Shown here: piece after piece, positions 3,193 to 10,622 of the stretch
How positions within the stretch are numbered: the first letter of the stretch is position 1
How the letters are laid out: each line of letters starts with the position of its first letter
Virus record (IMG/VR): IMGVR_UViG_3300007346_005714
Coordinates: 1-24,692 of that record
Strand: one strand, 5' to 3'
From: a virus
DNA length: 24,692 nt
Translations under genes and position numbers: made by a program
The notes under the pieces: generated by a model
The model's input: only the letters and a program-made list of their open reading frames with translations
Database searches by the model: none
What the model was told of the DNA's origin: nothing

Positions 3193-3588
3193 GTGAAAAT
3201 CACAATTACAGAATCACAATTAAAAAGATTAAAAAAGGTTATCAATGAGGCTAATACCGTCATTGATGACCTTAATAATCGTATTGACCCCGCCCAATTT
3301 ATATTTGAAAAGGAATTTACCACTGTGACTTTTAACAAAGTAATGTTGGAAGGAGATATTGAAGATGGGTTAAGTGTTTTGGTATCCATAGACAAGGTTT
3401 TATACGAATACTATGGTGAGAAAGACGTGACAGAATTTGCAAACATATGGGCAATAAAAGACATTTATACAGGTGATGATTTACCGTTAGGTACAGATAT
3501 ATCTATTCATGTTGCAAATATTATGAATAAAAAATATACAAAGTATCTCGGAGTTAATATTACTGAGTGGGATATCATTATAGAATAA
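3193..3588 (+). CDS. Unknown protein with ITESQL-type N-terminal tag
   Basis: 131 residues, GTG start. The first 20 residues read (V/M)KITITESQLKRLKKVINEA: a short strand, an amphipathic basic helix, then I17-N18-E19/A20, which fits the cleavage pattern of T4 gp21-type prohead proteases and is identical to the I-N-E/A site in the capsid protein of this window. A similar tag begins the 10365-10622 gene. The rest (about 110 residues) is an acidic alpha/beta domain with many Ile/Val strands and no Cys that I do not recognise. Inference: a head-internal protein targeted to the prohead by the tag and trimmed by the protease encoded next door. T4 internal proteins use a shorter tag of the same logic. 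There is no nearby ATG in frame, so GTG is preferred. Confidence 0.8.
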   Translation: MKITITESQLKRLKKVINEANTVIDDLNNRIDPAQFIFEKEFTTVTFNKVMLEGDIEDGLSVLVSIDKVLYEYYGEKDVTEFANIWAIKDIYTGDDLPLGTDISIHVANIMNKKYTKYLGVNITEWDIIIE

Positions 3589-3626: not shown

Positions 3627-4346
3627 ATGAGAGTTTTAGGACCACAAGATACAGGTAAGGGCATTTTAATAGAATGGGACGCAGGATTTATCGACCCAAA
3701 AGAAAGAAGGAATGCTGAAGTGATTAAAGAGTCTTATGGACAGTTGGACCATTCAAAGCCGTTTGAGTTCTATGCCGTCCTACAAAAATACGACACCCCA
3801 AACAGAAACGGTCGTGTATATCCTGAAAAGATTTTACGTAGAGAAGCCGACAGATATCAAGGAGCAATCAAAAAAGGATTGTCCATATCTGAACTTAATC
3901 ACCCTGAATCATCATTGATTGATTTGGACCGTGTGTCTCACCTTATCACAGATATGTGGTGGGAAGGTAATACATTGATGGGTAAGATTAAACTTCTAAC
4001 CTCACCAGGTTTCCATAAGGAAGGTGTTGTTTCATGTCCAGGTGACCAAGCGGCAAACCTTATGAGACAAGGTGTGACTATGGGGGTATCTTCTCGTGGT
4101 GTGGGTTCTTTAGCTAAAAAGGGTGAAAGAAACGAAGTTCAAGAAGATTTTGAACTTATTTGTTTTGACTTGGTATCATCACCATCTACACCAGGTGCGT
4201 ATCTTTTCTTGAACAAAGACGACAAAATGAAGTATGACGAAAACTTGGAAGAGGAAAAAAGACCACAAAATGAACCACGTTTAGATGGTGGTATGGGTGC
4301 ATCTATTGACTTAATGAAAAGATTGTCCGATTATTTAGGGTATTAA
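3627..4346 (+). CDS. 21: Prohead core protease, T4 gp21-like
   Basis: This is the serine protease of the prohead core. It cuts scaffold, capsid and internal proteins after (I/L)-x-E during head maturation and then digests itself. Family hallmarks are YDTPNRNGRVYP (55-66), the catalytic His in ELNHPE (H92), the catalytic Ser in GVSSRG (S155 or S156), and FDLVSSPSTPGA (180-191). At 239 residues the length is close to T4 gp21 (212). The C-terminal 40 residues, after LNKDD, are charged and probably a removable tail. It lies upstream of the scaffold and capsid genes, as in T4. The ATG is preceded by the R-TATTTAT-W element and an A-rich leader. Confidence 0.95.
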   Translation: MRVLGPQDTGKGILIEWDAGFIDPKERRNAEVIKESYGQLDHSKPFEFYAVLQKYDTPNRNGRVYPEKILRREADRYQGAIKKGLSISELNHPESSLIDLDRVSHLITDMWWEGNTLMGKIKLLTSPGFHKEGVVSCPGDQAANLMRQGVTMGVSSRGVGSLAKKGERNEVQEDFELICFDLVSSPSTPGAYLFLNKDDKMKYDENLEEEKRPQNEPRLDGGMGASIDLMKRLSDYLGY

Positions 4347-6180: not shown

Positions 6181-7941
6181 ATGGGAGCATTATTAGAAAG
6201 CGGTCTTGTAGGTAACATCGGTCTTAAGCACTTGAAAGTTATCAAAGAAGACACTATTAACAAATGGGACAAATTAGGTTTCTTAGATGGACTTAAAGGT
6301 CACTTGAAAGAAAACGTTGCACAGTTGTATGAGAACCAAGCTTCTCACCTAATCAACGAAGCATCATCAGCGGACGGTTCAGGTTCATTCGAAACTGTAG
6401 TTTTCCCAATCGTGAGAAGAGTATTCTCAAAATTATTAGCGAACGATATCGTATCTGTTCAAGCTATGAACTTACCAATCGGTAAATTGTTCTACTTCGT
6501 ACCAATGATTCAGAAGGGTCAAAATGGTCCAGGTTCACACGAAAAACCATTCGGAGCACCAGGTGCATCGACAGACATTAACCAAGGTTATGGTGCTGAC
6601 GGTTACGAAAAGAACTTGTATGACCAATTCTACGAAGGTGAAGTACCAGCTTCAAACCCAGAAGGTTTGTTCGATTACTCTAAAGGTCAGTATTCAGCAC
6701 TAACTCGTGACCTTGGAAACGTTAGATGGGACGGTTCTGAATTAGTTACTGCTACGGCTGGTTACTACACTGGTGAGCAAAGACAAGTTCTTGTTGCATT
6801 ATCAGGTTTCTCTTCTGCAGGTGCGGGTAAATTGATTGGTCCTGATGGTCAAGAAATGGATACTGAAGACTTCTTAGCTTCTTTGGAAGTTAAAACTTCA
6901 GGTAGTTCACCGGCAGCATACTGGAACTTTAACGTAGTAACTCAGAAATACGGTAAAGGTATGGTTCAGTATGGTTCTGAAACTCAAACTAACTTCTACT
7001 CAAGTCCAGCAGGTCCAGGTGGTTCTTACGATAACATCTGTGATGTTACCGGAATTATTTACTTGGCAGTTGACACTTCAGAAGTTGCAGGTATCGGTTC
7101 TAACTCATTAGACGGATACTCAGGTCATACATTCACTGCGACACCTGCATTCCAAGCAACTTACAGAGTTTACAAAACTTTGGAATTTGAAGATGCAATT
7201 GGTGAGGTTTCTTTCGACCTACAGTCTGTAACAGTATCTGTAACTGAAAGAAAATTAAGAGCACAATGGTCTCCAGAATTGGCACAAGACGTTTCTGCAT
7301 TCCACAACATCGACGCTGAAGCTGAATTGACAGCTTTATTGTCTGAGCAAGTTGCGGCAGAAATCGACCGTGAAATCTTAAGAGACTTGAGAAAAGGTGC
7401 AGCGTGGTCACTTAGATGGGACTACAACGGATGGAAGAGAATTTCTAACGGTTCTATTAACTACAACCAAAAAGATTGGAACCAAACGTTGATTACTGCG
7501 ATTAACCAAATCTCAGCTCAAATCCACAAGTCAACTCTTAGAGGTGGTGCTAACTGGATTGTTGTTTCTTCTGAAATTTCAGCAATCTTTGACGATTTAG
7601 AATACTTCCACGTATCTAACGCGGCACCTGACCAAGACCAATACAACATGGGTATTGAGAGAGTAGGTACATTATCAGGTAGATATCAAGTATATCGTGA
7701 CCCTTACTTCCCACCTAACCAAGTATTGTTAGGACACAAAGGTTCTTCTTTGTTGGATACAGGTTACGTTTACGCACCATATGTACCACTACAGTTGACT
7801 CCAACTATGTATAACCCATTCAACTTTACACCAATCAAGGGTATCATGACTAGATACGCTAAGAAAATGGTTAACAACCGTTTCTACGGTGTAATTAAAG
7901 TTGACGGTGTTAGAACATTCAACTTAAACCAATTAAGATAA
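6181..7941 (+). CDS. 23: Major capsid protein, T4 gp23-like
   Basis: HK97-fold protein forming the head shell, 586 residues (T4: 521). The N-terminal 60 residues form a charged helical propeptide ending HLINE/ASSADGSG; the I58-N59-E60/A61 bond fits the T4-type protease site (T4 cleaves after residue 65), so the mature chain should be about 526 residues. Further family-like segments are FETVVFPIVRRVFSKL, LRAQWSPELAQDVSAFHNID with ELTALLSEQVAAEIDREIL, and the C-terminal YDPYF-like YRDPYFPPNQVLLGHKG and FTPIKGIMTRYAKKMV. The start is the ATG at 6181, 25 bases after the scaffold stop, after an A-rich leader. No R-TATTTAT-W element lies in this gap, so it is probably cotranscribed with the scaffold gene. 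A strong terminator follows. Confidence 0.96.
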   Translation: MGALLESGLVGNIGLKHLKVIKEDTINKWDKLGFLDGLKGHLKENVAQLYENQASHLINEASSADGSGSFETVVFPIVRRVFSKLLANDIVSVQAMNLPIGKLFYFVPMIQKGQNGPGSHEKPFGAPGASTDINQGYGADGYEKNLYDQFYEGEVPASNPEGLFDYSKGQYSALTRDLGNVRWDGSELVTATAGYYTGEQRQVLVALSGFSSAGAGKLIGPDGQEMDTEDFLASLEVKTSGSSPAAYWNFNVVTQKYGKGMVQYGSETQTNFYSSPAGPGGSYDNICDVTGIIYLAVDTSEVAGIGSNSLDGYSGHTFTATPAFQATYRVYKTLEFEDAIGEVSFDLQSVTVSVTERKLRAQWSPELAQDVSAFHNIDAEAELTALLSEQVAAEIDREILRDLRKGAAWSLRWDYNGWKRISNGSINYNQKDWNQTLITAINQISAQIHKSTLRGGANWIVVSSEISAIFDDLEYFHVSNAAPDQDQYNMGIERVGTLSGRYQVYRDPYFPPNQVLLGHKGSSLLDTGYVYAPYVPLQLTPTMYNPFNFTPIKGIMTRYAKKMVNNRFYGVIKVDGVRTFNLNQLR

Positions 7942-8235: not shown

Positions 8236-8652
8236 TTATTCTGTTACTTCTTCAACAGGTTGTTCTGTTGGAGTTTCGTCTGTCGGAGTATCCGCAGGTT
8301 TTGTAATTGTTCTGATTGCTTTTGAAAGTGTTTCACTTTCCTCCATTGTGTAAGCGTTTCTTGAGTGAGCTGCTCTTGCCGCCTGAACTAAGATGTAAAG
8401 ACCTTGGTCAGGAGTCATATTTGTGATGAAGTTATCCAAATCAGATGTTTGGTTGTAATTGATGCTACCGAACAAGTTACCGATTGGTTTTGGAGTTTCA
8501 GTCTCAGTTACTTTTTCTTGAGTTGTTTCATCCAAAACTTGGTTTACTTGTTCTTCAACAGGTGCCTCAACTTTTGTTTCTTCGGCTTTCTTACGAGTTG
8601 TCGTTTTTTTGGTTGCAGTTGTACCTTCTGCAGTTTTCTTTGGTCTAGCCAT
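8236..8652 (-). CDS. Unknown protein with lysine/threonine-rich tail
   Basis: 138 residues in three parts: a basic, disordered N-terminus (MARPKKTAEGTTATKK and onward, RPKK being AT-hook-like), a central folded segment of about 60 residues (NLFGSINYNQTSDLDNF, then DQGLYILVQAARAAHSRNAY and EESETLSKAIRTI), and a Thr/Pro/Glu-rich acidic tail. I recognise this only as a type of small phage protein and know no function. The tail composition resembles histone H1-like or DNA-binding proteins, but the central part has no recognised DNA-binding fold. It is divergent from the 8734 gene. No clear promoter is seen; the leader is AT-rich. Confidence 0.8.
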   Translation of the reverse strand: MARPKKTAEGTTATKKTTTRKKAEETKVEAPVEEQVNQVLDETTQEKVTETETPKPIGNLFGSINYNQTSDLDNFITNMTPDQGLYILVQAARAAHSRNAYTMEESETLSKAIRTITKPADTPTDETPTEQPVEEVTE

Positions 8653-8733: not shown

Positions 8734-9627
8734 ATGTCAAAATATCTATTAAGTGAAGATTTAGCCGTTTGGTTTGGTAAAAAAAAGAAGAAAAAAGGTT
8801 CTTCTCAACCAAAAGGACCGTGGGTTAATATCTGTAAGAAGAAAAAGGGTGGTGGTCATCCACCGTGTGGACGTAAGGATGCTGACAAGGGGGCTTACCC
8901 TGTTTGTCGTGCCGCTGGTGTGGCAGGTAAAATGAGCCAATCTGAAAAAGACTCTGCTTGTCGTAGAAAAAGAGAAAAGGAAAAGAAAGACCCTCAATCG
9001 GGTAAAGGACAAAAACCGACACGTATTAAAATCAAAAACCATAAAAAGAAATCTAAAAAAGAATCTGTGGATACAAAGTTAATTCAAAACATTCTTAGTG
9101 AGTTTATTGAAACTAAGACAACGATTTCTGAGGAGATGCAATATCATATAGATAATAAGATATCTATTTCTGAAGGATTGTTCCGTAGAGGAAGTGATAA
9201 GTATTTTGAGGTTATCAACGAAGCGAGAAAACTTAGAGATAAAGGTTTTTATGTTAATGAAGAGGATAACGAATTATTGAATAGTGATTTGGGTAAATTC
9301 TTCATTTATGAAGGTGAGAGATTACCGTTAGATTTCCCAATTGTTAACGAAGCCGAATATAAAGGTAAGGATGTTGAATTAAACAAACCTAAATCAGGTG
9401 GTCCTAAGAAATGGTATGTTTATGTCCGTAATCCTAAGACGGGTAAAGTTAAAAAGGTAAGTTACGGTTCCCCTGTTATGACTGCAAAATGGAATGACCC
9501 AGAAGCGAGAAAGAGTTTTGCTGCGAGACACCAATGTGATAAGAAAAAAGACAAAACTAAGGCTGGTTATTGGGCGTGTAGAGCACATAAAGATTTTGGT
9601 AAGAATGTACCTGGAAGATTTTGGTAA
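8734..9627 (+). CDS. Cys/Lys-rich multidomain phage protein
   Basis: 297 residues from the ATG at 8734; the ATG at 8701 would add 11 but sits only 2 bases after a promoter-like element. Residues 15-110 are extremely basic with Cys at 34, 45, 58 and 76 (WVNICKKKK, HPPCGRKDADKGAYPVCRAA, SACRRK), a possible metal-binding domain. A helical middle carries several protease-like sites: L121-S-E, I145-S-E/G148, I161-N-E/A164 and V204-N-E/A207. The C-terminal domain (about 207-297) reads GGPKKWYVYVRNPKTGKVKK, ARKSFAARHQCD and GYWACRAHKDFG, a module I have seen in many marine T4-like phage proteins but whose function is not known. Inference: a DNA-associated head-internal protein trimmed by the prohead protease. 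Its stop overlaps the next start (TAATG). Confidence 0.85.
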   Translation: MSKYLLSEDLAVWFGKKKKKKGSSQPKGPWVNICKKKKGGGHPPCGRKDADKGAYPVCRAAGVAGKMSQSEKDSACRRKREKEKKDPQSGKGQKPTRIKIKNHKKKSKKESVDTKLIQNILSEFIETKTTISEEMQYHIDNKISISEGLFRRGSDKYFEVINEARKLRDKGFYVNEEDNELLNSDLGKFFIYEGERLPLDFPIVNEAEYKGKDVELNKPKSGGPKKWYVYVRNPKTGKVKKVSYGSPVMTAKWNDPEARKSFAARHQCDKKKDKTKAGYWACRAHKDFGKNVPGRFW

Positions 9628-10157
9628 TGGTATACGAACAGGAAAATATCGGTAAGTATAAATTCAAAAGAGTATTCACTGAAAATGTGGAGACGGATGA
9701 ACTTATTTGGCACCGTGATAGAGAAGATAGAAAGGTTTATGTTGAATCGGGTAATGATTGGATGTTACAGATAGATAATGAACTACCTCAGGTCTTGCAA
9801 GAGGGACAAACTTATTTCATCCCTAAGATGACATATCACAGAGTAATTAAAGGTACTGGTGACCTTAAAATCATTATTGATGAATCTTCAAACTATGTGA
9901 GGGTTCCAAAAACAATCAAAGAAAACGCAAAGAAAGGTGTTTATTACTCAAAAAGAGAGGGTAAGGTAAACCGTATTGCACTTTCGTTAGTTGAGAATGA
10001 ATACGTATCTAAAGATTTATTAAAAGAAATCAAACACATTTTAGATGGTCAAAAGATTTTGTCGGAATCAATAAAAAAGTCCGACTTAAAAAAATCGGAC
10101 TTCTATTCTTTGGGAGGAGAAAATACCTATAAATGGGTATTAAGACACCTAGTGTAA
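9627..10157 (+). CDS. Cupin-like protein coupled to the 8734 gene
   Basis: 176 residues. The ATG at 9627 overlaps the previous stop as TAATG, so translation is probably coupled; a TTG at 9621 is a poorer start. Residues 18-90 look like a cupin beta-barrel: DELIWHRDREDRKVYV, then LPQVLQEGQTYFIPKMTYHRV (shown here as VLQEGQTYFIPK and MTYHRVIKGTG), with His29 and His71 as possible metal ligands in the usual two-motif arrangement. The C-terminal half is Lys-rich and helical and contains LSE/S, a possible protease site, and the repeat KKSDLKKSDF, whose DNA forms a hairpin read as a terminator on the other strand. The function is not known; the cupin call is from pattern only. It converges on and overlaps the 10149-10331 gene by nine bases. 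Confidence 0.82.
   Translation: MVYEQENIGKYKFKRVFTENVETDELIWHRDREDRKVYVESGNDWMLQIDNELPQVLQEGQTYFIPKMTYHRVIKGTGDLKIIIDESSNYVRVPKTIKENAKKGVYYSKREGKVNRIALSLVENEYVSKDLLKEIKHILDGQKILSESIKKSDLKKSDFYSLGGENTYKWVLRHLV
10073..10102 (-). terminator. Terminator for the - strand embedded in a + strand gene
   Basis: On the minus strand AAGTCCGA, a ten-base loop and TCGGACTT form an eight-base perfect stem whose end runs into TTTTTT (10073-10078). It lies 47 bases beyond the stop of the 10149-10331 gene, inside the coding region of the opposite cupin-like gene. On the + strand the stem is not followed by T residues. Confidence 0.75.
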
Positions 10158-10364: not shown

Positions 10365-10622
10365 TTATTTTTTACCCGGACAATATTTTCCCGAACATTT
10401 TTTGTTTCCATTTACATCGGGCATCTTTCCTTTACATACCTGAACCGCATATCCGTTAGCATAAGCAGATGGGTAAACTTCATATTTAGCCTTTGCAGCC
10501 GTAATACCTCTTTTACACAGCGTTGTGTCTTTTTTCTTCTTTTTAGATTTTTTCTTCTCGTCAATAACTCTTCTGACGATTTGTTCTAACATGTCTTCAG
10601 TGATGGTGATTACCTTTTTCAT
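10365..10622 (-). CDS. Cys-rich basic protein with protease-type N-terminal tag
   Basis: 85 residues. The N-terminus MKKVITITEDMLEQIVRRVI ends in I20-D21-E22/K, matching the I-x-E cleavage pattern of the prohead protease and closely resembling the tag of the 3193 protein (short strand ITIT, acidic residue, then an amphipathic helix). A lysine run (KKKSKKKKKD) follows, then a compact domain with four Cys: TLCKRGITAAKAKYEV, YPSAYANGYAVQVCKGK and KKCSGKYCPGKK. The YPSAYANGYAVQVCKG stretch is one I know from many marine phage proteins of unknown function; the Cys arrangement could bind zinc. The ATG overlaps the stop of the upstream 499-residue structural protein (ATGA), so the two are probably made together. 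Probably a small internal or surface head/tail component. Confidence 0.82.
   Translation of the reverse strand: MKKVITITEDMLEQIVRRVIDEKKKSKKKKKDTTLCKRGITAAKAKYEVYPSAYANGYAVQVCKGKMPDVNGNKKCSGKYCPGKK

Follow-up and report, generated by a model that had tools for sequence, protein, structure and literature searches.

The gene at positions 8734-9627 (+) of the window, by which we mean the whole 24,692-base virus contig analysed here, from a marine T4-like phage, probably encodes, as judged from sequence, a cargo polyprotein that is packaged in the head and cut at its module borders by the phage's own gp21-type protease. A short CTS-like leader would take the polyprotein into the prohead, and the gp21-type protease (3627-4346) would then cut after [LIVM]-x-Glu at LSE8/D9, ISE133/E134 and VNE206/A207, setting free N and C as basic pieces and L as an acidic, helical one. 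Both basic pieces would probably remain associated with the DNA in the head and, by analogy with T4 internal proteins, may enter the host along with it. Packaging, cleavage, DNA association and ejection of this protein are what we infer from features that are directly observed, namely the motifs, their conservation, the exchange of modules, the register of autonomous homologues and the linkage to head genes; the possible DNA binding of the pieces is proposed from their charge.

Gene and module organization

The open reading frame, which was checked, runs from an ATG at 8734 to a stop codon at 9625-9627 and encodes 297 aa (34 kDa); its assignment as an N-L-C polyprotein gene draws on relatives in IMG/VR and on linkage to the major capsid protein (MCP) gene. 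It starts with the T4 CTS-like leader MSKYLLSE (residues 1-8; 8734-8757, +), with LSE8/D9 at its end, followed by the N module (residues 9-110; 8758-9063, +; Lys/Arg 33%, pI 10.4) and by a spacer (residues 111-133; 9064-9132, +) that contains LSE123/F124 and ISE133/E134. The L module (residues 134-206; 9133-9351, +) is acidic, helical and, according to the AF2 model of L-C, folded, and the C module (residues 207-297; 9352-9624, +) is basic. The computed pI values of the predicted pieces are 10.2 for N (residues 9-133), 4.7 for L and 10.1 for C. The original prediction had described two Cys-rich modules joined by a helical linker. Indeed, the N module has four Cys (C34, C45, C58 and C76), but only C45 and C58 are kept in distant relatives, and the C module of this protein has just two.

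A Pfam and NCBIfam search of the protein returned nothing above cut-off. In a profile search, residues 206-283 match phrog_7595 (E 5.1e-11), the family of the C module, and the N module aligns with autonomous N-module proteins (hhalign E 1e-14). Through these autonomous homologues alone the N module can be linked to DUF5872 (Pfam PF19197), which has no Pfam match in the window protein and is found in P-SCSP2 (5e-14) and, only below cut-off, in HTVC027P.

Putative cleavage motifs and their conservation

Motifs of the gp21 type are more frequent in the protein than in shuffled sequences, with eight occurrences of [LIVM]xE against 3.2 (P 0.0065) and four of [LIV]xE[AGS] against 0.60 (P 0.0025). 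The motifs ISE147/G148 (9166-9177, +), INE163/A164 (9214-9225, +) and VNE206/A207 (9343-9354, +), which were listed in the original prediction as protease sites, are all present, and the capsid protein does carry the same INE/A tetrapeptide. Among the relatives in IMG/VR, 258 of which were confirmed by tblastn, conservation was counted in 51 distinct sequences, some of them truncated where the contig stops. All 51 have the canonical form of LSE8/D9 (LSE or LDE, then D), 49 that of ISE133 and 43 that of LSE123, while VNE206/A is canonical in 48 of 49 close relatives; the first list of sites had overlooked both LSE8/D9 and ISE133/E134. INE163/A is likewise conserved in 51/51, and in distant L modules its Glu is retained with Phe often at P3, whereas ISE147 has its Glu in only 35/51.

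The full-length AF2 model is poor (pLDDT 45.5), and that of L-C, built with 55 sequences, reaches a mean pLDDT of 76.9, dropping under 50 at residues 202-204. In it L is a helical domain and C a domain of strands and helices, and the two fold side by side with a strand at the junction. Since INE163 lies in the middle of a confidently predicted helix (155-169) of the L domain and ISE147 in a loop of the same domain, the former is most likely a structural motif and the latter is probably no processing site either. The more likely cut map thus consists of LSE8/D9, ISE133/E134 (perhaps with LSE123/F124) and VNE206/A207. Separable N- and C-terminal pieces, as proposed for a head polyprotein, are supported on sequence grounds, with a map of cuts that was probably wrong in part. 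As to structural relatives, sequence searches of solved structures gave nothing meaningful for either L-C or N, a Foldseek search of the PDB gave none at E<=0.001, and the hits in BFVD were mostly uncharacterised phage proteins. Designed 'Pizza' propellers, which came up with the autonomous C profile, were discarded, their repeats having been summed with no stretch passing alone.

C-module junctions and autonomous modules

The junction in front of the C module was analysed in a non-redundant set of 63 fused C modules, each preceded by more than 60 residues. Glu occupies P1 in 56 of them, P3 is Leu, Ile, Val or Met in 57, and P1' is Ala, Ser or Gly in 59. Both upstream positions agree in 54/63, against 1.6 expected from a background of 0.0256 per position, a count that does not amount to 54 independent events as the sequences are related. 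P2 and P4-P9 are degenerate (entropy 3.4-3.9 bits), so that only P3 and P1 are constrained upstream, and the sequence logo is protease-like. Moreover, most autonomous C modules, which come from phages with no detectable gp21-type protease, begin at this same junction. The autonomous C proteins of Kolga, HTVC202P, 026P, 111P, 112P and CRP-902 (79-93 aa) start with MA(K/T)Y, and in a profile alignment (hhalign E 2.3e-26) the Ala after their Met pairs with A207 and the Met itself falls on the P1 Glu; another register is found at the start of those from HTVC106P, CRP-3 and CRP-738. The P1 Glu is therefore dispensable for the C module, as the autonomous copies have Met in its place. The N module behaves similarly, with a start in the D9 register in HTVC023P and P-SCSP2 (M-SLKKWF or M-SLRRWF, against DLAVWF in the fused form) and about three residues upstream in the others. 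On account of the junction logo and of the start-Met register of the autonomous modules, VNE206/A207, the best-supported putative site, and LSE8/D9 are well supported as predicted cleavage sites. ISE133 is a likely one. In CRP-6 gp55 (L309:4908-5597) a C module is joined to an XkdF-type head protease domain (PF14550 7e-18).

These data bear on the possibility that the protein is an uncleaved product of domain shuffling in which Glu-Ala is conserved for structural reasons or as part of a linker. INE163/A is itself an example of a conserved gp21-like motif that can be structural, and some contigs with fused modules have no detectable gp21; against this stand the restriction of constraint to P3 and P1 at the C junction and the dispensability of the Glu, which together make an uncleaved mosaic very improbable.

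The occurrence of the protease itself was compared between architectures. The phrog_207 protease was found in 12/12 module-bearing records of T4-like background and in 0/10 records with autonomous modules, all of them chosen by hand rather than sampled. An additional survey of 18 contigs had a mixed outcome, with 11 carrying a gp21-type protease and seven without, the latter having C modules and no detectable gp21, gp23 or S78-type protease. The C junction is canonical in all 11 protease-positive contigs; among the seven others it is canonical in four, reads ELFD/A in two and has no anchor in one. Such contigs may be fragments or otherwise incomplete, may use another enzyme or may encode a protease beyond the reach of these profiles. 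The association between protease and architecture is suggestive but not clean. Where a gp21-type protease is lacking, the modules most likely come as individual small genes, with start codons at the predicted cut sites or only a few residues away. HTVC027P and HTVC023P have K next to N as two separate genes. The coincidence of start codon and cleavage motif offers a simple predictor of head-protease sites from sequence alone.

Module exchange and leaders

Profile searches of the ORFs from 306 loci and the window recovered L-C in 66 ORFs, N-L-C in 65, K alone in 63, N alone in 23 and K-N-L-C in 6, the 66 distinct ORFs having the L module without N. Insertions in the relatives occur at two places, 206/207 and the spacer. 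At the former, a ParB-like segment (DGNHRA; phrog_17560 1.8e-9) lies between VNEQ and LSEAEY in loci L057-L059 and L072, large insertions of other segments are found in the spacer in L062-L064 and L069-L076, and N-L-C is preceded by a fused K module in L065-L068, L075 and L077-L079. In Melnitz a nucleotidyltransferase-like N-terminus (phrog_3041 2e-83; CTP_transf_like 4e-6) precedes L-C.

The near-equal abundance of L-C and N-L-C would also fit a protein from which only the leader MSKYLLSE, perhaps with the spacer, is trimmed, L-C staying joined as one multidomain internal protein. The adjacency of L and C in the model, with a strand at their junction, agrees with this, as does the loss of a propeptide by T4 internal proteins (PMC9026906). 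However, [LIVM]xE immediately precedes the Ala in C modules fused to a wide variety of partners, and it is there that most autonomous copies begin; trimming of the leader alone is hence unlikely, although it is the most probable of the alternatives considered here.

Leaders recur as well. Leaders of the type MKKxxxLTExDLxxIVxRVxxE precede 15 distinct downstream contexts, the K gene of the window included, according to a pattern built post hoc from examples picked by eye and without a shuffled control. Three internal copies of this pattern resemble gene fusions: in L214, L219 and L223 the leader, its own Met included, follows TNE/N within longer polyproteins. MKKFSEIIE/A of Melnitz and MKNFSSFLTE/A of S-CREM2 resemble the T4 CTS described in PMC9026906.

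Head-gene neighbourhood and virion proteins

The genes of the window form a T4-like head cluster, in which a portal gene (10-1671; phrog_213), the gene for the gp21-type head maturation protease that is the presumed cutter (3627-4346, +; phrog_207, E 1.5e-43) and that for the gp23-type MCP (6181-7941, +; Pfam Gp23 1.4e-72) precede the polyprotein gene. The MCP has a putative cleavage site, INE60/A61 (6352-6363), that is kept in 44/44 aligned MCP sequences with the full site and lies at about the position at which T4 gp23 is cut. Of 57 loci with enough flank, 51 have a capsid gene upstream in the same orientation, mostly within 1.3 kb.

Several other genes lie in this region. An autonomous K-module gene of 85 aa (10365-10622, -; phrog_27331 3e-9) has the long leader MKKVITITEDMLEQIVRRVIDE, which ends in IDE22/K, and a similar leader, KITITESQLKRLKKVINE/A, begins a 131-aa ORF with a GTG start between the portal and protease genes (3193-3588, +). 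A cupin-like ORF (9621-10157, +) overlaps the end of the polyprotein gene, and in Flavobacterium phage immuto, whose L-C has LDE/GEYRGK, a gene of similar look (L083:8524-8781) comes after L-C. Between the capsid and polyprotein genes, on the opposite strand, lies a Lys/Thr/Glu-rich ORF of 138 aa (8236-8652, -), for which no family match was found above cut-off.

Proximity to the capsid gene would also fit a scaffold or prohead-core component that, like T4 gp67, gp68 and gp22, is degraded in maturation and not retained as cargo. Core proteins are likewise cut at several sites (PMC9026906), and autonomous modules lie between the scaffold and capsid genes in P-SCSP2, where K and N are near both, and in OCT-S30-C28. 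On the other side, the exchange of modules involves enzyme-like segments among others, and mature virions of S-CREM2 contain a distant polyprotein of related modules, a detection that is not decisive since scaffold and protease peptides were found in those virions too. A scaffold role is on balance improbable, slightly more so than trimming of the leader alone.

The S-CREM2 protein in question, gp160, is represented by seven unique peptides in a published virion proteome (PMC10665884). Profile matches link it to phrog_727 (9e-49) and, through the K HMM (2e-4), to the K module. It has xxE motifs between its module-like parts, and LSE127/A and ISE252/G are candidate sites; the independent N HMM did not match it, so that its N-like part is linked only via phrog_727 and the K module. 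A second S-CREM2 protein, gp137, with four virion peptides, ends in a stretch common to phrog_727 and phrog_10346, and HTVC027P has a DUF6321 protein that matches phrog_10346. These data place related modules, not the window protein, in virions, and the link is distant. Nucleotidyltransferase-like proteins also recur in cyanophage virions (PMC3037559, PMC10665884, PMC9602691). Residues 17-70 of gp160 (L326:24843-25736) match the major head protein family phrog_696 (4.8e-10), i.e., the leading part of this module polyprotein resembles a capsid protein. Of other candidates, S-SZBM1_190 was checked as a virion-detected relative and found to be unrelated, S-SZBM1_139 has a CW...VPDC stretch recognized by eye only and no match to the module HMMs, and the ICP1 paper holds nothing on gp125.

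Comparison with known systems

The closest functional parallel is given by the T4 internal proteins IPI, IPII and IPIII and by Alt (PMC9026906). T4 gp21 is reported to cut after L/I-X-E, and for targeting the ten N-terminal residues of IPIII are enough (PMC9026906). The window protein shares with this class a leader of about ten residues ending in [L/I]-x-E, a gene in the head neighbourhood, a gp21-family protease in the same phage and basic predicted products. It differs in that one chain comprises several swappable modules whose borders are each marked by a motif, and no Pfam or PHROG match names IPI-III or Alt; lacking sequence homology, it would at most work like these proteins and is no member of the class. 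Polyvalent proteins, in the parts of the account of Iyer et al. 2017 (PMC5512222) considered here, are similarly multidomain, with exchangeable parts, a proposed packaging in the capsid and an analogy to polyproteins. At least two distinct domains in exchangeable architectures are found here too. Pfam showed no conflict-related catalytic or embedded peptidase domain in the window protein, and ParB-like and nucleotidyltransferase segments appear only in its relatives. Release of the polyvalent proteins is discussed in those parts via embedded peptidase domains, while a separate head protease is the presumed cutter here, and small basic modules are not mentioned in them.

The cyanophage T4-GC119/phrog_727 proteins (S-BM3, S-B43) likewise carry N, K and further small modules on a single chain, separated by xxE motifs; one of the further modules matches DUF6321-type phrogs. 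They differ in that no L or C module was detected in them, and the portions of the literature consulted do not describe them as polyproteins. phrog_7595 (C), phrog_27331 (K) and phrog_23735/DUF5872 (N) are single-module families catalogued as of unknown function, with no cleavage or architecture described. A cargo polyprotein cut at its module borders would provide these marine phage families, and phrog_727, with a testable role, would extend head maturation by a polyprotein logic that works border by border and would predict further packaged proteins behind the recurring leaders. By extension, and with a chance that we place a little short of even, marine T4-like phages may share a general plug-in cargo system, in which swappable modules and enzymes are carried in polyproteins, behind leaders or between head-protease sites, and are split in the prohead for delivery to the host, with protease-less phages using separate genes instead.
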